26,665 nucleotides of DNA from a virus: positions 1-26,665 of IMG/VR virus record IMGVR_UViG_3300022602_000353; one strand, written 5' to 3'. The notes beneath the pieces are model-generated. The model was not told the DNA's origin and did no database searches. It worked only from the letters and a program-made list of their open reading frames with translations. A program made the position numbers and the translations under genes. This document shows, in pieces, positions 1,620-24,640 of the stretch (position 1 is its first letter; each line of letters opens with the position of its first letter).

Positions 1620-2090
1620 ATGAATCGTAAAAATTATTTGTACATGTTGATTGGTGTGCCTGCTAGTGGCAAGAGCACTTGGATCAACAACCAAGAATGG
1701 ACACGGGATATTCCCGTTGTTTCCAGTGATCGTTTCATTGATGACTATGCACAAAAGCAAGGCAAAACTTATAATGAAGTGTTTGATGAATACATCAAGA
1801 TTGCAACAAAGTTGATGGAAAACCAAGTGTTGGTCTGTCAAGCAAATAACAAGGATGTAATCTGGGATCAGACCAACCTGACAGCAAAAAGTCGTGCAGT
1901 CAAGTTGAATATGTTGCCCGACTACTACAAGATTGCAGTGGTGTTTCTAACACCGGCAACAGAAGAACACGCTCGTAGATTAGCAGGCCGCCCAGGCAAA
2001 GCTATCCCAGAAGGGGTATTGCGTTCCATGGCTGCTAACTTAGAGTTACCAATAGAAGCAGAAGGATTCCAAGAAATCTGGTACGCATAA
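1620..2090 (+). CDS. Polynucleotide 5'-kinase (P-loop, kinase domain only)
   Basis: A 156-residue P-loop kinase of the T4 polynucleotide kinase/AAA_33 type. The Walker A motif GVPASGKST lies at residues 12-20. SSD at 35-37 fits the acceptor-end binding aspartate, WDQTNLTAKSR at 82-92 is a family hallmark, and basic residues near 119-124 fit the lid. T4 Pnkp is about 300 residues with a C-terminal HAD 3'-phosphatase; that half is absent here. A GAGG site precedes the ATG. It sits 12 bases after the phosphatase and 10 before the metallophosphoesterase, so 3'-end healing may come from those neighbours. The likely role is 5'-phosphorylation of RNA ends before ligation. Confidence 0.85.
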   Translation: MNRKNYLYMLIGVPASGKSTWINNQEWTRDIPVVSSDRFIDDYAQKQGKTYNEVFDEYIKIATKLMENQVLVCQANNKDVIWDQTNLTAKSRAVKLNMLPDYYKIAVVFLTPATEEHARRLAGRPGKAIPEGVLRSMAANLELPIEAEGFQEIWYA

Positions 2091-2100
2091 GGATATAATT

Positions 2101-2643
2101 ATGACAAAATGGATTACAAGTGACTTGCATTTCGGACACGCAAACATCATGAATTTTTGTCCCGTAACACGGGCCGGCTTCACAGATGTGGATGACATGC
2201 GAGAAAAAATGATTGCAGAATGGAACGCAAATGTGCAACCAGATGATGAAACATTTATCTTGGGTGACTTTGCTTTCTTGCCAGCAAAAGACGCAGTACA
2301 AATCTTGCGCCGTTTGAACGGTACCAAGATTTTGATTGAAGGCAATCACGACCGCAAGTTGTTGAACGACCCCGCATTCCGTGCAGAGTTCAAGGAGGTA
2401 CATCAGTACTTGCGCTACAACCATGAAGGACAGATTGTGATTATGTTACACTATCCTATTCACGAATGGGACCAAATGCACCGTGGTGCGGTTCACTTCT
2501 ATGGTCATGTGCATGGCAAAGAAACTGGCTTGGAAAAGTATCGTGCTCGTGATGTGGCGTTTGACGCAACAGGTCGTGTGGTCAGCCGCTTGGATGAAAT
2601 GATTCGTGATGCGTTAAAGGGTGAAATCCGCGCTCATCACTAA
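2101..2643 (+). CDS. Calcineurin-like metallophosphoesterase
   Basis: A 180-residue protein with the full set of binuclear metallophosphoesterase motifs: DLHFGH (8-13), GD (55-56), GNHD (81-84), LHYP (116-119) and GHVHG (135-139). It has no signal peptide, so it acts in the cytoplasm. AAGGA lies eight bases before the ATG. It follows the kinase gene closely and ends at a palindrome that includes its stop codon. Family members hydrolyse phosphomonoesters or diesters. In bacterial Pnkp a domain of this superfamily removes 2',3'-cyclic and 3' phosphates from RNA, so an RNA-healing role is a reasonable inference here. The true substrate cannot be read from the sequence. Confidence 0.85.
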   Translation: MTKWITSDLHFGHANIMNFCPVTRAGFTDVDDMREKMIAEWNANVQPDDETFILGDFAFLPAKDAVQILRRLNGTKILIEGNHDRKLLNDPAFRAEFKEVHQYLRYNHEGQIVIMLHYPIHEWDQMHRGAVHFYGHVHGKETGLEKYRARDVAFDATGRVVSRLDEMIRDALKGEIRAHH

Positions 2644-2665
2644 AGTAGTACTCGAGTACTACTTT
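2642..2665. repeat. 24-bp perfect palindrome, copy 1 of 3
   Basis: AAAGTAGTACT-CG-AGTACTACTTT, perfectly self-complementary. It begins inside the stop codon of the metallophosphoesterase gene and its last base is the first base of the next promoter's -35 box. Copies with the same arms lie at 14704-14725 and 17748-17769. As RNA it would form a hairpin with flanking A and T runs, so it could be a bidirectional terminator. As DNA it could bind a dimeric regulator. Confidence 0.85.
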
Positions 2666-2693
2666 TGACTCAAAATGGTTTTGGTTGTATAAT
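2665..2693 (+). promoter_or_regulatory. Sigma70-type promoter next to palindrome copy 1
   Basis: TTGACT (2665-2670), a 17-base spacer and TATAAT (2688-2693). The stretch GGTTGTATAATA is shared with promoters at 14789 and 15052. It reads into the gene at 2727, whose leader ends in GGAGAACAAT like that of the gene at 1104. Confidence 0.85.
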
Positions 2694-2726
2694 ATACACA
2701 TACAGACAGCAAAACAGGAGAACAAT

Positions 2727-3071
2727 ATGAGCAACGGCGCCAAATTCTATGCTATTCGAATCAAGGGTACCGACTTTTTTAAGTGTAGTGGTAAAAACTT
2801 ATATTTTGCTACTTTTGAAGATGCCATGACCAAAGGCGTATACTTCAATCAGCGAAAAACTGCTGAAAAGGTACTGAAGGCCAACACAAAACAATTGGCC
2901 GCAGATGGTTGGCCTATTAATTACAGCCAATTCGTCATTATTAATGAAAATGAAGACAAGTACTACTCTGGTATACAACAATTTGTAGACAGCCAATCAG
3001 AATTGTATGAGATTGAGCATTGGAATATTGAGTTGGAAATTGTCGAACTGGCCATGGCCATCATAGAATGA
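2727..3071 (+). CDS. Phage hypothetical protein
   Basis: A 114-residue acidic soluble protein without recognised motifs. The start is set at 2727 by the GGAG site eight bases upstream; the open frame further upstream runs through the promoter. It is the first gene after the promoter at 2665-2693 and precedes two small genes and RNA ligase, so it is probably co-transcribed with ligase. No function can be given. Confidence 0.7.
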   Translation: MSNGAKFYAIRIKGTDFFKCSGKNLYFATFEDAMTKGVYFNQRKTAEKVLKANTKQLAADGWPINYSQFVIINENEDKYYSGIQQFVDSQSELYEIEHWNIELEIVELAMAIIE

Positions 3072-3093
3072 ACATTTCGGAGTTGAACTATGA
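3072..3093 (+). repeat. 22-bp coding/ribosome-site repeat, copy 1 (relic)
   Basis: The sequence from ACATTTCGGAG to AACTATGA is identical at 3251-3272 and 17386-17407. In the other copies it encodes the protein tail HFGVEL, its stop, the Shine-Dalgarno GGAG and the next gene's ATG. Here the HFGVEL frame is closed by TAG at 3064-3066, so only the tail of that reading frame remains and the repeat serves as ribosome site for the gene at 3090. The match with the copy at 17386 extends a further 11 bases past the repeat with one difference. Confidence 0.85.
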
Positions 3094-3272
3094 CACGAGA
3101 ACAAATGATGGCGTTGTTTGAAAAGTCCTGTGCTAACTGGGGATTTGATTTCACCAAAGATGACAAGAGCCCCAATGGAGTAATCTATGCTTCATACGAG
3201 ACTGGTGTGATGTTTGGTATATTTGACGCAGGCTTTGATACAGCAAAAGAACATTTCGGAGTTGAACTATGA
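3090..3272 (+). CDS. Small phage protein ending HFGVEL
   Basis: A 60-residue protein starting MTREQMM and ending in the tail HFGVEL that also ends the protein at 17150-17407. Translation starts from the GGAG inside the repeat just upstream. It overlaps the next gene by ATGA, so translational coupling is likely. The central part, with aromatic and Gly residues, matches nothing I can name. Confidence 0.7.
   Translation: MTREQMMALFEKSCANWGFDFTKDDKSPNGVIYASYETGVMFGIFDAGFDTAKEHFGVEL
3251..3272 (+). repeat. 22-bp coding/ribosome-site repeat, copy 2
   Basis: Identical to 3072-3093 and 17386-17407. It codes for the HFGVEL tail of the gene at 3090 and provides the GGAG ribosome site and start codon of the gene at 3269. 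Confidence 0.88.
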
Positions 3273-3448
3273 AAGTCAAAGATTTATTGAAACTGTTAGA
3301 GGGTGTAGACCCCGAATCCACTGTACTGGTTCGTGATAATGGAAGTATTTCTCCTACTGACAATTTTGACGAACACAATGACTATAATTGTGACCGGGAT
3401 GACGAATATGAATTCTTTATTCTTGTTGCCGAGGAGTGGGATGAATGA
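3269..3448 (+). CDS. Small acidic phage protein, 59 residues
   Basis: A short, strongly acidic protein (many D and E; begins MKVKDLLKLLEG and ends EEWDE). It overlaps the upstream gene by ATGA and RNA ligase by ATGA, so it lies inside a translationally coupled run. Phages often encode such small acidic proteins, with the pattern DPEStVLVrD seen in several, but no function is established. The tight packing and the ribosome site in the repeat support that it is real. Confidence 0.75.
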   Translation: MKVKDLLKLLEGVDPESTVLVRDNGSISPTDNFDEHNDYNCDRDDEYEFFILVAEEWDE

Positions 3449-4332
3449 ACAAAGAAGAATTACGAAAGTTCGTACTAGACAATCCCAAGTTGGTCACAAT
3501 GCGGCCAGCTGGCGATGGCATCTATGTGCTAAAGTACAAGCGTACTGTGTTCTACGATAACTTGTGGAATGACTACTTAGAAGAATGCCGTGGCACAATC
3601 GTTGATGCAGACTTTAACATTGTGACTTATCCATTCACCAAAATCTATAACTATGGTGTTGAAAAGAACGCACCTGTGTTTGCCGATACTGATTTGGTAA
3701 CTGCATATCGTAAAGTCAATGGATTCATGGTTGCTCTGACTTGGTACAACAACGATGTGTTGGTGTCTACTACTGGTAGCACTGATAGTGATTTTGTTGG
3801 TTATGCACGGGAAATGATGTTGAAGCACATGCCTTGGGCTGACTGGCAAATGGCATTCGCCAATGACGATATGCAGGGTATGACTTTTATGTTTGAATGT
3901 GTGCATCCTTCAGATCCACACATCATTCCAGAAGAAATGGGCATGTACATCTTGGGCTATCGTGAAAACGAATTTGGCTCTAAGATTGGACACGATGCTT
4001 GCGTATTGCAAGACTTGTCTATCATGTTCAAGTGCCACAAGCCAATTGGGCTTACAGCTTATATGTCAGAAGTAAAGACTCTGGCTAAAGAATGTAAGCA
4101 CGAAGGTTTTGTATTCTATCACACAGATGGTCGTGCTGCTAAAATCAAGAGTCCATACTACTTGGTGAAGAAGGCATTGGCACGAAAAAAAGATATTATG
4201 TCTCTAAACAAGGAATTGGTAGAGGAAGAATATTTTCCATTAGTCGCTCACTTAACAGAAATAAAAGACCAGTTCAACGAAATGGGCGAACAGCCCCGAT
4301 TGGAATACATTCGGTCATTTCTTAATAAGTGA
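3445..4332 (+). CDS. RNA ligase, T4 Rnl1-like
   Basis: A 295-residue ATP-dependent RNA ligase. The adenylation motif KVNG lies at residues 90-93, with K90 the likely AMP-linked lysine. Upstream are ECRGTIVD and the PFTKIYNYG block typical of Rnl1-type enzymes. Motif IV is EGFVF (around 220) and motif V is KIKSPYY (around 231). Rnl1 of T4 is 374 residues, so the C-terminal tRNA-specificity domain is shorter here. Rnl1 seals tRNA cut in the anticodon loop after Pnkp heals the ends. The kinase, two phosphatase-like genes and tRNA genes nearby support the same pathway. Its 3' end overlaps the convergent homing endonuclease gene by 18 bases. Confidence 0.88.
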   Translation: MNKEELRKFVLDNPKLVTMRPAGDGIYVLKYKRTVFYDNLWNDYLEECRGTIVDADFNIVTYPFTKIYNYGVEKNAPVFADTDLVTAYRKVNGFMVALTWYNNDVLVSTTGSTDSDFVGYAREMMLKHMPWADWQMAFANDDMQGMTFMFECVHPSDPHIIPEEMGMYILGYRENEFGSKIGHDACVLQDLSIMFKCHKPIGLTAYMSEVKTLAKECKHEGFVFYHTDGRAAKIKSPYYLVKKALARKKDIMSLNKELVEEEYFPLVAHLTEIKDQFNEMGEQPRLEYIRSFLNK

Positions 4333-5007
4333 TTTGCAGTTGGTGTCGTGCCAACGAAAGTAGTTTCCACTACTCACCTGTTTACCACAATGTGGGCAGG
4401 TGAGTTTTGGTTTGTTCTTCATAATATCAGACTGTTTCTTCTTATGATCTTCGGACTTGGGTCTCTGCATCTTCGCACGAATCTCGTTAGCCTGGTCATT
4501 ACCATGCAAGTCTTCGAGACTGCGTCCTATTAGTGAGTTGCGTATAGCATCTTTGTGTGCTTGTGACTTCGGCCCATCATGTTTGCCTTGACCACTGGCT
4601 CGCATTTTTTGTCGTGTAAGCTCGGAGTGAGTTTTTCCAAACATTGGATTTAACTCACCTGAACGAGACTTCCCAAACCAAGGGTTTTTATTTCCCTTTA
4701 TGTCTGTGTGAAATGTGCCGTATCCCGTTGCTTGATTGATATATAATGGATTTTTATGAACTTGCAGTTTCTTGTGAAAGTATTCCTCTTTCTCTGCGGA
4801 TTCCTTTTTAGTGGAGTGTAGTGTCAATATACGAGTTTCAAACAAGTGTGGGTTACGATAAAGTTCTTCCAACCAAATCTGCTTGTATAGTTTGCTTGTG
4901 ACAGACCCGCGATACCCTGTTTGGATCCTTTTTACCGAAGTCCGTCCAATATAGAACGGTGGCATTTTGTCACCCTTGTAAGTCGTGAGATAAGTGCAGT
5001 AATCCAT
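4315..5007 (-). CDS. GIY-YIG homing endonuclease with NUMOD3 motifs
   Basis: A 230-residue protein read on the minus strand. The N-terminus has YLT (6-8) and FYIG (18-21), the GIY-YIG core with the first element altered, then basic residues near 27-33 and a candidate catalytic glutamate at 74 or 75 before PLYIN. NPWFGKSRSG and NPMFGKTHSE (about 108-129) are NUMOD3 DNA-binding motifs. The C-terminus has a possible zinc finger with C204, C207, H220 and C224. It is free-standing, not in an intron, and convergent with RNA ligase with an 18-base overlap. A TATAAATA octamer lies about 30 bases upstream, so late expression is likely, as known for T4 endonuclease genes. Confidence 0.85.
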   Translation of the reverse strand: MDYCTYLTTYKGDKMPPFYIGRTSVKRIQTGYRGSVTSKLYKQIWLEELYRNPHLFETRILTLHSTKKESAEKEEYFHKKLQVHKNPLYINQATGYGTFHTDIKGNKNPWFGKSRSGELNPMFGKTHSELTRQKMRASGQGKHDGPKSQAHKDAIRNSLIGRSLEDLHGNDQANEIRAKMQRPKSEDHKKKQSDIMKNKPKLTCPHCGKQVSSGNYFRWHDTNCKSLIKK

Positions 5008-6801: not shown

Positions 6802-7812
6802 ATGAAGAAATTCGCTCTTTTGGTCGCTCTGCTTGCTAGTTTTAGCGTAGCACATGCTGACATTAATCTAGTAGGCACTATGGATGCTGGATATTCCGGT
6901 GTTAAAGCCCCTGGCTCAACCACATCAACTACTAGTTTTTCTAGTGGCGGTATGACAACAAGCTATGTTGGTCTTACTGGTAAAGAAGATTTGGGCAATG
7001 GTGCAAAGGCAATCTATGAATTGACCAGCTTCTTGAACGACGGCAATGGTGCCGTTCAAGGTGGAACAACTGTCAACACATTTGCTCGTAGCGCTTTTGT
7101 TGGTCTAAGCACAGAATTGGGCACAGTTACAATGGGTCGCCAAAGCAACCCAAGTTTCTTGCCAGTTGTCTTGTTCAACGCTTATGGTGACTCAGGTGCT
7201 TATGGTCCTCTATGGCATGCTACTTATTTTGGTAACACTGGCAATGCACAAACTCAGTTGTACAACGATACAGCATGGGATAACAGTATCAACTATAGCT
7301 CGCCAAATATTCTTGGTGCAACAGTTAATGTTCAAAGTGCTAAAGGTTCTACTGGTGGTACTAACGGTGGTGCTAATGTCTTGTTCTTCAAGGGTGATCT
7401 TGGCTTGACAGCATTCTATCAATCAACTGGTTTTAACAGTTCTGGTAGTTTCCAAACCAATGTGTTTACAGCATATCAACCTGCTGTAGCAAAAGGTGTT
7501 GGCGCAAGCTATGACTTGCATGTTGCTAAATTGTTTGCAACATACACAGATGCCAAAGACGATAGTTTGAATGTAAATGGCAAAACTTCACAAGTTAGTG
7601 CTCTTGTGCCATTTGGCAAAGGTAACATCATGGCAGAATTTGCTGATACTCGTTATACTAGCACTAGTGTCACTCACTATAAAGAGTATGCAGTTGGCTA
7701 TGACTACAACTTGAGCAAGAAAACCGATGTATACGCAACATTTGGTCGTACCGATGTGACAGCACAAACTGCTGGTCAAACTGTTGGTGCAGGACTTCGT
7801 GTTCGCTTCTAA
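6802..7812 (+). CDS. Outer-membrane porin of betaproteobacterial type
   Basis: A 336-residue protein. The first 19 residues are a signal peptide (MKKFALLVALL core, cut after AHA). The mature part starts DINLVGTMDAGY and has alternating beta strands, with YVGLTGKEDLGNGAKAIYEL and FARSAFVGLS-LGTVTMGRQ blocks typical of trimeric Gram-negative porins. The last residue is F336, the signal read by the BAM machinery. Length is normal and no frameshift is seen. AAGGAA precedes the ATG. It stands alone between a late-type promoter and a terminator. Porins pass small solutes and serve as phage receptors, so in a phage it may change uptake or replace a receptor. Recent host origin is likely but base usage looks like the neighbours. 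Confidence 0.92.
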   Translation: MKKFALLVALLASFSVAHADINLVGTMDAGYSGVKAPGSTTSTTSFSSGGMTTSYVGLTGKEDLGNGAKAIYELTSFLNDGNGAVQGGTTVNTFARSAFVGLSTELGTVTMGRQSNPSFLPVVLFNAYGDSGAYGPLWHATYFGNTGNAQTQLYNDTAWDNSINYSSPNILGATVNVQSAKGSTGGTNGGANVLFFKGDLGLTAFYQSTGFNSSGSFQTNVFTAYQPAVAKGVGASYDLHVAKLFATYTDAKDDSLNVNGKTSQVSALVPFGKGNIMAEFADTRYTSTSVTHYKEYAVGYDYNLSKKTDVYATFGRTDVTAQTAGQTVGAGLRVRF

Positions 7813-21365: not shown

Positions 21366-21371
21366 GTAAAT

Positions 21372-21392
21372 GCCCCAATTGGGGCGTTTTTT
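21372..21392 (+). terminator. Rho-independent terminator
   Basis: GCCCC-AATT-GGGGC followed by G and six T residues, six bases after the nucleotidase stop. Confidence 0.9.
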
Positions 21393-21393
21393 A

Positions 21394-21422
21394 TTGACAA
21401 TCGATAACATTTTTGTTAAAAT
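21394..21422 (+). promoter_or_regulatory. Promoter giving a near-leaderless message
   Basis: TTGACA (21394-21399), a 17-base spacer and TAAAAT (21417-21422). The predicted start falls at about 21429, the A of the ATG of the next gene, which has no Shine-Dalgarno. Confidence 0.72.
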
Positions 21423-21428
21423 ATAAAC

Positions 21429-22625
21429 ATGAAAACATTTACCTTTGTAGAAGATTATATCGAAGTTATTGCTGGTTACAGAGATATTCAAACTGGTACC
21501 AAACTATCTTCATCATTCTGGTCAAGTTTTGAACCAGTCATTAGTCTTGCCCGGTATGATGTTAATGTGCTCGATTCTATGGCAGCGGCTGTGTCGTCTG
21601 GCAAAGCATTGACTACACGACAAGCCGAACTTGCCAAAAAAATCATTCTGAAATATCAGCGTCAACTAGCACAAAAAGGTGTTGATGTTAGTCCAGTAAA
21701 TGAACCACAATGGCGTATGCCACTCCGTGTCATGGATTACAGCAAACTCTTGTACATCAAAGATGACACTATAATGTTAGAGTTTCCATTCAGCAATCAG
21801 TTGATTGAAGGTCTTAGAGAATTCCGCAAAGATAGTCAAGGCAAGGCTGAATGGAATAAAGAGCACCGACGTTGGGAGTTTGATTTAACAGAATACAATC
21901 TGGTATATCTGCTGACTTGGGCACAAGCCAATGAATTTGAAATTGATAAAGAAGCTCATAAGTTGAATGAACTTATTGCAGAAGTAGAAAAAACACCATA
22001 CGCCATTGAACTTGATGTTGTCGATGGTATCTTGACTATCAAAAATGCTCCAAACAGCATGATGGAATATATCAATGAACACGGTAAATTATCAATTGAT
22101 AATCTGGCACAATTGATTGATTTGGCACCAATATTAGGTTACACCATCGGAGAAGATATTCAAGCAGCATGGGCGCAAGAACATGGTAAGATTAATATGT
22201 TTCTCAGCGCCAATAGGCAAGTTAGATTTCCCGAAGATCAATACCAAATTATTCAACAAGTATTGGACTATGCTGATAAAGCACAAAAATGGCCAGTGGT
22301 TATTTTTGAACCAGATACAAGTAACATGATGATGGGACAAATTTGGCAATATCGTGAACGCAGTTTGTGTCACCTGCATCGTGGCAGAAATATGATTGAT
22401 ATGTCAAGTGTGCCAGAAGGTGTTAAATACATTCATACCACCGTTCCAATCAAGAATCTTGATATCCCTTTGCTAGTCAGCACTGCGGGTATGATGTTTG
22501 GTGGAGACAAGAGTTTAATGTTACAACGAGCAGACAAAATCGTATACTTTGCTGCCGATGTTCATACACATAAAAAAGAAAATAAGGTAGCCACTTTTGA
22601 AAGCGAAACTAGTAATCAGGGATGA
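21429..22625 (+). CDS. HARP-like protein upstream of UvsW
   Basis: A 398-residue protein. LEFPFSNQLIEGLREF through WNKEHRRWEFDLTEYNLVYLL (around 118-160) resembles the HARP domain of annealing helicases (SMARCAL1 type), which grips DNA forks. It has no Walker A motif, so it is not itself a helicase. The rest (alternating helices and strands, to about residue 385) is unrecognised. It ends with a 29-base overlap into the uvsW-like gene, so the two are translationally coupled and probably act together in fork remodelling. The start ATG has no ribosome site but lies on the predicted transcription start. The HARP resemblance is my reading only. Confidence 0.65.
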   Translation: MKTFTFVEDYIEVIAGYRDIQTGTKLSSSFWSSFEPVISLARYDVNVLDSMAAAVSSGKALTTRQAELAKKIILKYQRQLAQKGVDVSPVNEPQWRMPLRVMDYSKLLYIKDDTIMLEFPFSNQLIEGLREFRKDSQGKAEWNKEHRRWEFDLTEYNLVYLLTWAQANEFEIDKEAHKLNELIAEVEKTPYAIELDVVDGILTIKNAPNSMMEYINEHGKLSIDNLAQLIDLAPILGYTIGEDIQAAWAQEHGKINMFLSANRQVRFPEDQYQIIQQVLDYADKAQKWPVVIFEPDTSNMMMGQIWQYRERSLCHLHRGRNMIDMSSVPEGVKYIHTTVPIKNLDIPLLVSTAGMMFGGDKSLMLQRADKIVYFAADVHTHKKENKVATFESETSNQG

Positions 22626-24126
22626 ATGTAATGTAAAGATTGAGGGACTTGAACTATCAACTCGCAAAAAGTTGATGGACAGATTTAAGTACGAGATTCC
22701 TGGGGCACGATTTACTCCAGCAGTAAAACTGGGCAGATGGGATGGTAAAGTAAGCTATTTCAGTTTAGGTGGTAGTACATTTATTAATCTGCTACCCGAT
22801 ATCATCCCATTTCTTGACAACGAGGGATATGAGATTGATCTAGATGATCATCGTACTTACTCTGTTCCAATCACATTTGATCCAATCAAAGAAGATACTT
22901 TTGCGCACAAGTTGTGGCCAAAAGGTCATCCAGCGGAGGGACAACCTGTATTGTTGCGAGACTATCAAGTGCAGATTGTCAATGACTTTCTTGAAAATCC
23001 GCAAAGTGTGCAAGAGATTGCAACTGGGGCTGGCAAGACCTTAATGACAGCATCACTTAGCTTGATGGTAGAGAAGTATGGCAGAAGCGTTGTCATCGTT
23101 CCAAACAAAGATTTGGTCAAACAAACCGAAGCAGATTACAAGAACTTGGGTCTTGATGTTGGAGTCTACTTTGGTGATAGAAAAGAAGTTGGTAGAACAC
23201 ATACTATCTGCACATGGCAAAGTTTGAATATCTTACTAAAGAACAGTGAAGGCAGAAATTCAGAAGACGAGCCAGCAAGTTTTAGATTGATCAAAGATCC
23301 AAAAGATTACATCATTGACGATCTAACTGATGGCGTTGCACTGGTCATGGTCGATGAAGTTCACATGGCCAAAGCAGATGCCTTAAAGACTTTACTCACT
23401 GGCCCATTCTCAAGAGTACCAATTCGTTGGGGCTTAACTGGCACAGTACCAAAAGAAGATTATGCCAAGATCAGTATTTTCTGTAGTCTGGGCCCAGTTG
23501 TTGGTAAATTGGCAGCAAGCACATTACAGGATGCTGGACATTTGGCACAATGTCATGTCAACATTTTACAAATACAAGATTTCAAAGAATACAAAAACTA
23601 TCAAGAAGAATTAAAGTATCTTGTGACTAACACAGAGAGATTGGCAAATATAGCAAGAATGATTGACAAGATCAAAGATACTGGCAATACACTTATTTTG
23701 GTAGATAGAATTGAAACAGGCAAGTATCTACAAGCAGAACTCAGCAACTTGTTTAGTTTGTTGAGCGACAAACCAGATGTGCCATTTGTCTATGGCAATG
23801 TAAAATCAACAGATAGAAAAGAGGAATATGACGATGTTGCGACTGCTACTAACAAGATTATTGTGGCGACTTACGGTGTGGCCGCTGTGGGTATTAATAT
23901 TCCTCGTATTTTTAATTTGGTTCTTATTGAGCCCGGAAAGAGCTTTGTCCGTGTTATACAAAGCATTGGGCGAGGCATTAGAAAAGCGGCAGACAAAGAC
24001 CATGTTGAAATCTACGATATCACATCGAACTGCAAGTTTGCGAAAAGACACCTCACTCAGCGTAAGGCCTTCTACAAGGAAGCGAATTACCCGTTTACTA
24101 TCGAGAAAATAACCTGGAAAGATTAA
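22597..24126 (+). CDS. uvsW: UvsW-type ATP-dependent DNA/RNA helicase
   Basis: A 509-residue SF2 helicase close to T4 UvsW in size and layout. The N-terminal domain has the FTPAVKLGRWDGKVSYF block (38-54). Motif I is ATGAGKT (142-148), motif II is DEVH (about 253-256), motif III GLTGT (about 282), and motif VI SIGRGIRKA (about 455). It starts with TTG: no in-frame ATG lies early enough, and the N-terminal domain is needed. The frame overlaps the HARP-like gene by 29 bases. UvsW unwinds branched DNA and R-loops, and shifts replication from origin to recombination mode late in infection. A role in stalled-fork regression is well known for T4. Confidence 0.93.
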   Translation: MKAKLVIRDECNVKIEGLELSTRKKLMDRFKYEIPGARFTPAVKLGRWDGKVSYFSLGGSTFINLLPDIIPFLDNEGYEIDLDDHRTYSVPITFDPIKEDTFAHKLWPKGHPAEGQPVLLRDYQVQIVNDFLENPQSVQEIATGAGKTLMTASLSLMVEKYGRSVVIVPNKDLVKQTEADYKNLGLDVGVYFGDRKEVGRTHTICTWQSLNILLKNSEGRNSEDEPASFRLIKDPKDYIIDDLTDGVALVMVDEVHMAKADALKTLLTGPFSRVPIRWGLTGTVPKEDYAKISIFCSLGPVVGKLAASTLQDAGHLAQCHVNILQIQDFKEYKNYQEELKYLVTNTERLANIARMIDKIKDTGNTLILVDRIETGKYLQAELSNLFSLLSDKPDVPFVYGNVKSTDRKEEYDDVATATNKIIVATYGVAAVGINIPRIFNLVLIEPGKSFVRVIQSIGRGIRKAADKDHVEIYDITSNCKFAKRHLTQRKAFYKEANYPFTIEKITWKD

Positions 24127-24136
24127 AATATAACTT

Positions 24137-24640
24137 ATGAGAATATTAACAATACAAAATACAGCATACGAATTAGATGAAATACCAAATGAAATTGAAG
24201 AACTAAACTTTTGTGTGCTTGATAATAGCAACCCAAAAGAACCAGATTATTTTTATATCCCATTGATCTTTATGGAGTCGTTTAATAGTCCAGCACTAGT
24301 ATTGCGTATTGGTAAACATATCATTAAGATGCCAGCAGATTGGCAATTATTGATCGGTGAAAAAGACTTGGGTGATCTTGAAGTTGTCCCACTTACAAGT
24401 ATCAATGATCGCGGATTCAGTGCTTTTGCATTTAACCCCAAGACCAGTTTCAAGCCAGACTTTTATCCAGTTGAGATTATGGACATTTATCAAGATGTCA
24501 AATGGTACTTTCCAAAATTGAAACCAGGACAGATGCTGGCAGTACCCTTAGAAGTTGGAACAGATGGTCCCATGTGTGCATATTTTGTAAAAGATATCAG
24601 CAGACAAAGTGAAGTAGTAGATTATTCGAAGGTGTGGTAA
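24137..24640 (+). CDS. Conserved T4-like phage protein next to uvsW
   Basis: A 167-residue acidic protein starting MRILTIQNTAYELDEIP. DRGFSAFAFNP and DVKWYFPKLKPGQMLAVPL are distinctive blocks. My recollection of T4-like phages of cyanobacteria is of a similar protein in the replication region, but I cannot name it. No catalytic motif is seen. No clear ribosome site precedes the ATG; it is ten bases after uvsW. It overlaps the next gene by one base (TAATG). Confidence 0.7.
   Translation: MRILTIQNTAYELDEIPNEIEELNFCVLDNSNPKEPDYFYIPLIFMESFNSPALVLRIGKHIIKMPADWQLLIGEKDLGDLEVVPLTSINDRGFSAFAFNPKTSFKPDFYPVEIMDIYQDVKWYFPKLKPGQMLAVPLEVGTDGPMCAYFVKDISRQSEVVDYSKVW

Follow-up and report, generated by a model that had tools for sequence, protein, structure and literature searches.

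Fork-reversal enzymes are expected to bear a junction-binding domain beside the motor, according to the available part of one report (PMC4666394). A HARP domain was located there at the N-terminus of T4 UvsW (PMC4666394), and two HARP domains were described in vertebrate SMARCAL1 (PMC4035279, PMC4666394; available parts). Other SNF2 motors gained annealing-helicase activity when HARP domains were fused to them (PMC4035279, available part). Work on UvsW, the model motor for fork regression in phages, has treated it as an enzyme acting alone; in the available part of that report, T4 UvsW alone was a robust rewinding enzyme and was discussed as monomeric (PMC3778716). A small neighbour of the T4 motor, UvsW.1, was presented as a potential DNA-binding partner of UvsW in a jumbo-phage survey, and the word HARP did not occur in its main text (PMC7824862). 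No uvsW neighbour like the one described below was named in the listed titles and abstract beginnings of papers on UvsW with the HARP domain and on the HARP domain with phage helicases.

The window analysed here was the whole of a 26,665-base virus record, a 26.7-kb fragment. In the window, uvsW is preceded by an overlapping gene named H, which encodes a HARP-like UvsW neighbour (Table 1). Like the SMARCAL1/HARP annealing helicases, the H/UvsW pair ties a HARP module to an SF2 motor. However, H carries its HARP module as a protein of its own that lacks ATPase motifs, and the motor is UvsW, not SNF2, with a HARP-type domain of its own. The SMARCAL1-type arrangement, in which ATPase motor and HARP share one chain, was not found in H. 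The pair also resembles UvsW and UvsW.1 of T4, where the motor has a small neighbour that is a potential DNA-binding partner (PMC7824862, available part), but H is HARP-like, has 398 aa and is located upstream of uvsW. The UvsW.1 profile (PF11637) matched 1 of 16 records, the T4-like RB7, and none in the window record, and it may miss diverged copies since UvsW.1 was reported in jumbo subgroup 2.2 (PMC7824862, available part). H was rejected as a UvsW.1 replacement, since jumbo phages lacking H likewise gave no UvsW.1 match, which left no pattern, with a profile that may miss copies. RecC and AddB are dead helicase subunits in SF1-type nuclease complexes. By analogy, H may resemble them in that a helicase-like subunit without activity partners a working motor.

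The window UvsW showed UvsW_N and two motor lobes with intact motifs. Its Pfam matches were UvsW_N (1.5e-7), ResIII (8.9e-17) and Helicase_C (3.1e-9), and its PHROG match was DNA helicase (5.6e-72). The Walker A, DExH and motif VI patterns were present in all 87 UvsW sequences (32 of them in alignment A5). The preliminary description had recognised a HARP-like block and an SF2 motor, UvsW, in adjacent overlapping genes, and this reading held, with a 29-bp overlap and HARP support at profile level. Its wording of a HARP-like protein fused by overlap had to be dropped, because these are two overlapping genes and no fused protein.

Table 1. Features of the H/uvsW region, with positions in the window.
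Feature	Position	Strand	Basis or remark
Intrinsic-terminator-like hairpin and T run closing the upstream unit	21368..21389	+	Consensus scan
Sigma70-like promoter, TTGACA-17-TAAAAT, 11/12, TG before -10	21394..21422	+	Best in region
Gene H (398 aa), encoding the HARP-like neighbour of UvsW	21429..22625	+	ATG start
N-terminal helical module, H residues 36-92	21534..21704	+	Model helices 42-56, 63-75, 77-82
HARP-like domain, H residues 107-172	21747..21944	+	Profile comparison and strand order in model
Linker, beta hairpin and helices, H residues 174-250	21948..22178	+	Model
RecA-like lobe without Walker A, H residues 253-390	22185..22598	+	VIA-align and motif census
AAGGT, Shine-Dalgarno-like site of uvsW in H codons K386-V387	22584..22588	+	Putative function
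H/uvsW overlap, 29 bp	22597..22625	+	
uvsW, SF2 helicase, 509 aa, TTG start	22597..24126	+	Pfam and PHROG matches
UvsW_N domain (PF21241), UvsW residues 5-83	22609..22845	+	Pfam
UvsW Walker A (ATGAGKT)	23020..23040	+	
UvsW DEVH motif II	23353..23364	+	

The HARP-like domain was compared with Pfam and with a set of phage HARP repeats. The window H protein alone gave no HARP match in Pfam by hmmscan. A one-record HARP profile search on the window gave 12.4 bits (E 0.003) against the Pfam cut-off of 25 bits, at a permissive setting under which 5 of 14 control genomes gave matches too. PF07443 was found at E ≤ 1 in 11 of 80 H relatives (best E 0.012), the most members of any Pfam family; the next family was DUF6953, with 7 of 80 and a best E of 0.0068. 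Four of the five displayed HARP matches lay at H residues 118-161, in profile register 3/4-40. The 25-bit cut-off was reached by no H member seen, the top score being 14.8 bits, and PF07443 matched 0 of 16 members of a diverged H subfamily. In the case of the HARP protein of phage vB_BcoS-136, the Pfam score was 44.4 bits; its 58%-identical homologue scored only 13.0, and a 57%-identical homologue gave no PF07443 match. Of the four reference proteins, those other than L173 and L174 were scanned, and the vB_BcoS-136 protein alone passed Pfam HARP. By the yardstick of the homologue scores, the cut-off treats phage HARPs strictly. Since the direct Pfam support was weak and stayed below the cut-off, H was named HARP-like and was not placed in PF07443.

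Profile-profile comparison gave a clearer result. The HARP reference profile combined a SMARCAL1 fragment with seven repeats drawn from four phage HARP proteins. The slice of H residues 100-175 matched it with a probability of 95.5% and a score of 43.1. None of 300 column shuffles reached this score (mean 10.3, maximum 19.8), and the reversed slice gave 9.0. The slice of the diverged subfamily gave 94.2 and 39.1, again with 0 of 300 shuffles reaching it (maximum 19.2); alignment A8 combined 24 of 74 main-family slices and 9 of 16 diverged-subfamily slices. When the SMARCAL1 fragment was removed, the best H slices still scored 42.6 against the HARP repeats, and none of the 62 slices cut from UvsW and SNF2 alignments exceeded 13.5. 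These were pairwise tests of one hypothesis and not a database search. The signal was weaker when whole proteins or a single sequence were compared (9.4%, 66.9% and 66.0%), each time with HARP placed on HARP. SMARCAL1 was not returned by a PDB sequence search with the H HARP slice, and SMARCAL1 4O66 was not returned by PDB searches with the window H protein and the H family. The H slice and UvsW_N were considered as kin, and the profile comparison showed none; likewise, a likeness between UvsW_N and the HARP repeats was undetectable by sequence in profile comparison. Mason et al. 2014 are said to have replaced the UvsW N-domain by HARP.

The predicted model of H had a mean pLDDT of 91.2 and a pTM of 0.62. 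It showed strands at 107-111 and 114-118, a helix at 123-133, strands at 140-143 and 148-152, a helix at 155-167 and a two-residue strand at 171-172, so that residues 107-172 are predicted to form a sheet of five strands and two helices, arranged in the order of HARP. F119, E155 and N157 were kept in 80 of 80 sequences, K/R at 147 likewise, and W149 in 75 of 80. These results suggested that H belongs to the HARP superfamily at profile level, in the right register, and the HARP part of H is well supported at that level. The HARP-like block that the preliminary description had placed at residues 110-165 was thus found there by the profile-profile match, and the part of its HARP profile check that fell short was the Pfam cut-off.

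H is more than a HARP block; it consists of a helical N-module, HARP, a linker and a C-terminal lobe, the last of which the preliminary description had overlooked. In the N-module, the match was to phrog_21015 (unknown function), which reached E ≤ 0.1 in 73 of 80 members, with 9.1e-6 as its best value. The linker gave no match to the HARP reference profile. VIA-align placed H residues 253-398 on SF1/SF2 motor lobes with Z 9.8-10.7 among the 50 rows listed, which span only H residues ~229-398. All titles among these matches were helicases or translocases, or complexes containing them, and within a complex the matched chain is presumably the helicase or translocase. T4 UvsW (1rif residues 93-282) gave Z 10.2 and rmsd 3.6 over 136 aligned residues. 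A first, shallower H model had the same outcome (Z 9.3-10.2). In Foldseek, four of the eight best solved chains (E ≤ 0.001) were named XPB, with low TM of 0.18-0.24. The N-terminal part of XPB is also HARP-like.

The predicted lobe appeared to be dead as an ATPase. A P-loop/Walker A pattern was found after residue 240 in none of the 80 H members (one has the pattern elsewhere), and DExH/D-like letters after residue 240 in three. The H lobe compared with UvsW and SNF2 lobes by hhalign stayed below 1% throughout, whereas the control, UvsW against SNF2, was detected at 97.2% and 91.0%. The RecA-like fold of the C-terminus was therefore assigned on the predicted structure alone, and the dead lobe is supported at predicted-fold level. 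A motif-V-like stretch seen by eye in the lobe was discarded, as profile comparison gave nothing, and H was not retained as a UvsW paralogue because the whole-profile comparison found no similarity.

H represents a real conserved family tied to UvsW and is undescribed within reach of our searches. The number of relatives in IMG/VR was 14 by one protein, 34 by an alignment and 210 by a broader one, from which 80 were kept. A query led by distant H members gave 181 relatives, with 79 loci kept. The diverged subfamily, of about 340 aa, was reached through UvsW, and its profile matched that of the main subfamily with 99.4% (3.1e-21); alignment A7 used 16 of 17 listed sequences, omitting L209 for its unclear start. 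In BFVD, an uncharacterised protein with 36% identity came from an uncultured phage. Three family members used as tblastn queries gave no match in 50,697 phage records, and none of 40 H pattern matches in genome contigs was confirmed. Seventeen columns were invariant across the 80 sequences. The dN/dS by part, in 18 of 26 close pairs, was 0.094 for the N-module, 0.089 for HARP, 0.162 for the linker and 0.153 for the lobe; the whole-gene median of the 26 pairs, some of which share sequences, was 0.093 (maximum 0.297). Every part of H is under purifying selection. Alignment A3 left out five duplicate, five truncated and one short sequence as well as the short fragments L012-L014; in one of the truncated sequences, L025, H looks frame-broken.

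The tight linkage to an intact SF2 motor gene was borne out across loci. After removal of 40 duplicates by the last 150 H residues, 166 H loci gave 126 distinct ones. H lay upstream of uvsW in 125 of these, and the remaining locus ends at the contig edge. The uvsW gene was overlapping or within 60 bp in 105 and 0.6-3 kb away in 20; under another deduplication rule (35 removed) the counts were 111, 19 and 1 of 131, with two or more short UvsW-like pieces counted as uvsW. When the spacing was taken for 81 distinct loci, 58 pairs overlapped, 13 were within 60 bp and 10 were more distant, numbers which argue that the overlap is not due to chance. In the opposite direction, 80 of at least 600 UvsW loci were kept, and 65 were informative: 46 with H and 19 without H in at least 1.2 kb upstream, the other 15 being too short. 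UvsW can thus do without H. In six of the 19 H-less records, all possible fragments, H was not found elsewhere when they were searched whole.

The loci with 0.6-3 kb between H and uvsW included L006, L018, L019, L046, L064, L100 and L102, and the uvsW start was ATG in 9 of 10 distant pairs looked at. In L018, a 53-aa UvsW-like remnant (2211-2369) overlaps H and the full uvsW lies 1.1 kb further on, an arrangement suggestive of an insertion that detached the former uvsW start.

The nearest isolated relatives of the window UvsW were from jumbo phages, namely Phosso (52.6%), Atu_ph07 (50.1%) and then the Cassandra/PA5oct group. In Sinorhizobium phage Phosso, gp418 gave 40.8 bits with the H profile over the N-module and HARP and, like H, is located upstream of uvsW (gp420). 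However, it has 212 aa, the RecA-like lobe is absent, and gp419 lies between the two genes. Phosso gp419 (L175 2369-3871) has 500 aa and gave no match in Pfam, phages other than Phosso or viral contigs. SNF2 motifs read in it by eye were dismissed, as 169 of 200 shuffles scored at least as high against the SNF2 first lobe. In Atu_ph07, AUZ94890 (181 aa) is probably the BFVD match A0A2L0UZF7, judged from phage and length; with 3.1 bits against the H profile, it was not counted as an H member. The genes before uvsW were annotated as nuclease, polymerase or homing in 121Q, RaK2, Kaldavass and RB7 and were hypothetical in Cassandra, Vibrio 2.275, SCTP-2, RAS14 and P-SSM2. The H profile matched none of seven upstream proteins from five of these nine phages.

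Like H, the HepA-related HARP protein of vB_BcoS-136 (AYP68137) is phage-encoded and has no motor in the same chain. It differs in its 245 aa, its two HARP repeats and the absence of a RecA-like lobe. In a Foldseek search of the H model against viral models it took rank 33 (E 3.2e-3, prob 0.85), with a TM of only 0.15. Kinship between the N-module of H and the N-terminal part of AYP68137 was unsupported (1.7%). No gene named uvsW was listed in the first 50 of 160.6 kb of the vB_BcoS-136 record.

H heads a unit of its own, with the terminator-like hairpin and a promoter of leaderless type just ahead of it (Table 1). The scan of the region gave 8 terminator-like hairpins against a shuffle mean of 2.4, and 15 promoter-like sites against 11.8. 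The -10 element before H ends 6 nt before the ATG, so that the H mRNA is probably leaderless. A promoter-like site of at least 10/12 was present within 61 nt upstream of H in 42 of 77 loci, compared with none of the 77 control stretches taken from within the gene, and in 36 of these 42 the -10 ends 5-7 nt before the ATG. A ribosome site before H was seen in 3 of 80. Among 30 gene starts checked across the window, a single one had this arrangement, and in loci of at least 9 kb it occurred at 23 of 53 H genes versus 16 of 543 other ORFs. The promoter position, the scarcity of ribosome sites and these control counts together suggested that the H transcript is probably leaderless. On the uvsW side, AAGGT lies 8 nt before the TTG, and K386 and V387 were invariant in the nine sequences of alignment A1. 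TTG was the commonest apparent uvsW start (47 of 81 distinct loci, starts chosen by script). Directly after uvsW, a 167-aa gene of phrog_11279 (24137-24640) has a 9/12 promoter-like site 7 nt before its ATG, with no ribosome site found, and similar ORFs come after uvsW in several H loci.

We judge it an evenly balanced question whether H is a DNA-binding, ATPase-dead HARP accessory subunit of UvsW. Such a subunit would combine a HARP-like junction-binding module with a RecA-like lobe whose ATPase motifs were lost or never present. It would be produced in step with UvsW, from the promoter directly before H and a probably leaderless mRNA, and uvsW would be translated from its TTG behind the ribosome-site-like motif in the last codons of H. 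The HARP module may bind the branched DNA of D-loops or stalled forks, and the RecA-like lobe may dock on UvsW. The motor would gain a second junction-binding domain and might be biased towards rewinding, branch migration and the regression of forks. In this view UvsW would receive a further HARP module from H, comparable to the two of SMARCAL1. Against this, UvsW already has an N-terminal HARP-type domain, T4 UvsW works alone, 19 of the 65 informative loci have no H, and the genes lie apart in 20 of 126 loci; nor does a complex follow from operon linkage alone. H could instead be a stand-alone ssDNA- or junction-binding recombination protein, placed in one operon with uvsW only to match dosage and timing, and never touching UvsW. 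A helicase-less HARP protein does exist in Bacillus phage vB_BcoS-136, and both genes are still kept where they lie apart. However, H was away from uvsW in none of the 126 distinct loci (one cut at the contig edge), and a free-standing protein would not need this constant neighbourhood. The predicted lobe also suggests a role in protein or DNA docking, and we regard a free-standing H as rather unlikely.

The preliminary description had suggested that H and UvsW may form a two-protein annealing helicase, which would make them halves of a single SMARCAL1-like enzyme with the HARP function supplied in trans. The starting point of this model, a HARP block and an intact SF2 motor in overlapping genes, remains. 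However, this proposal did not survive well, because the window UvsW keeps its own UvsW_N domain, T4 UvsW alone rewinds DNA (PMC3778716, available part), and 19 of the 65 informative UvsW loci showed no H; we consider it improbable. H as the remnant of a one-time HARP-SF2 helicase, retained chiefly as a leader that couples the translation of uvsW, would agree with a lobe without motifs and with the ribosome-site-like motif of uvsW inside H. The dN/dS of 0.09-0.16 in all parts and the 17 invariant columns argue for a working protein, and make this the case to which we would give very little credence. For the accessory subunit, we tentatively extend the proposal, with some doubt, to a heteromeric fork remodeller in many uncultivated phages, in which a dead HARP half-helicase complexed with UvsW would supply a second junction-binding wedge in trans. 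If true, it would be a phage counterpart of the tandem HARP domains of SMARCAL1 and of inactive-helicase subunits such as RecC and AddB. The strictly linked HARP-bearing neighbour suggests a built-in UvsW partner in a wide phage group. Since HARP module and motor can be examined separately, the contribution of HARP to a rewinding motor is directly testable with two small proteins.

Other genes of the window were also noted. A Gram-negative porin gene (PF13609, 4.1e-37) is located at 6802-7812 of this phage record; the porin was not found by tblastn in 50,697 phage records and is encoded on five other IMG/VR contigs with 64-69% identity. An ORF with NUMOD3 motifs, of homing-endonuclease type, lies on the minus strand at 4315-5007. 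At 1620-4332, an AAA_33 kinase-like gene is accompanied by a T4 Rnl1-type RNA ligase, and the two are perhaps an RNA-repair set.
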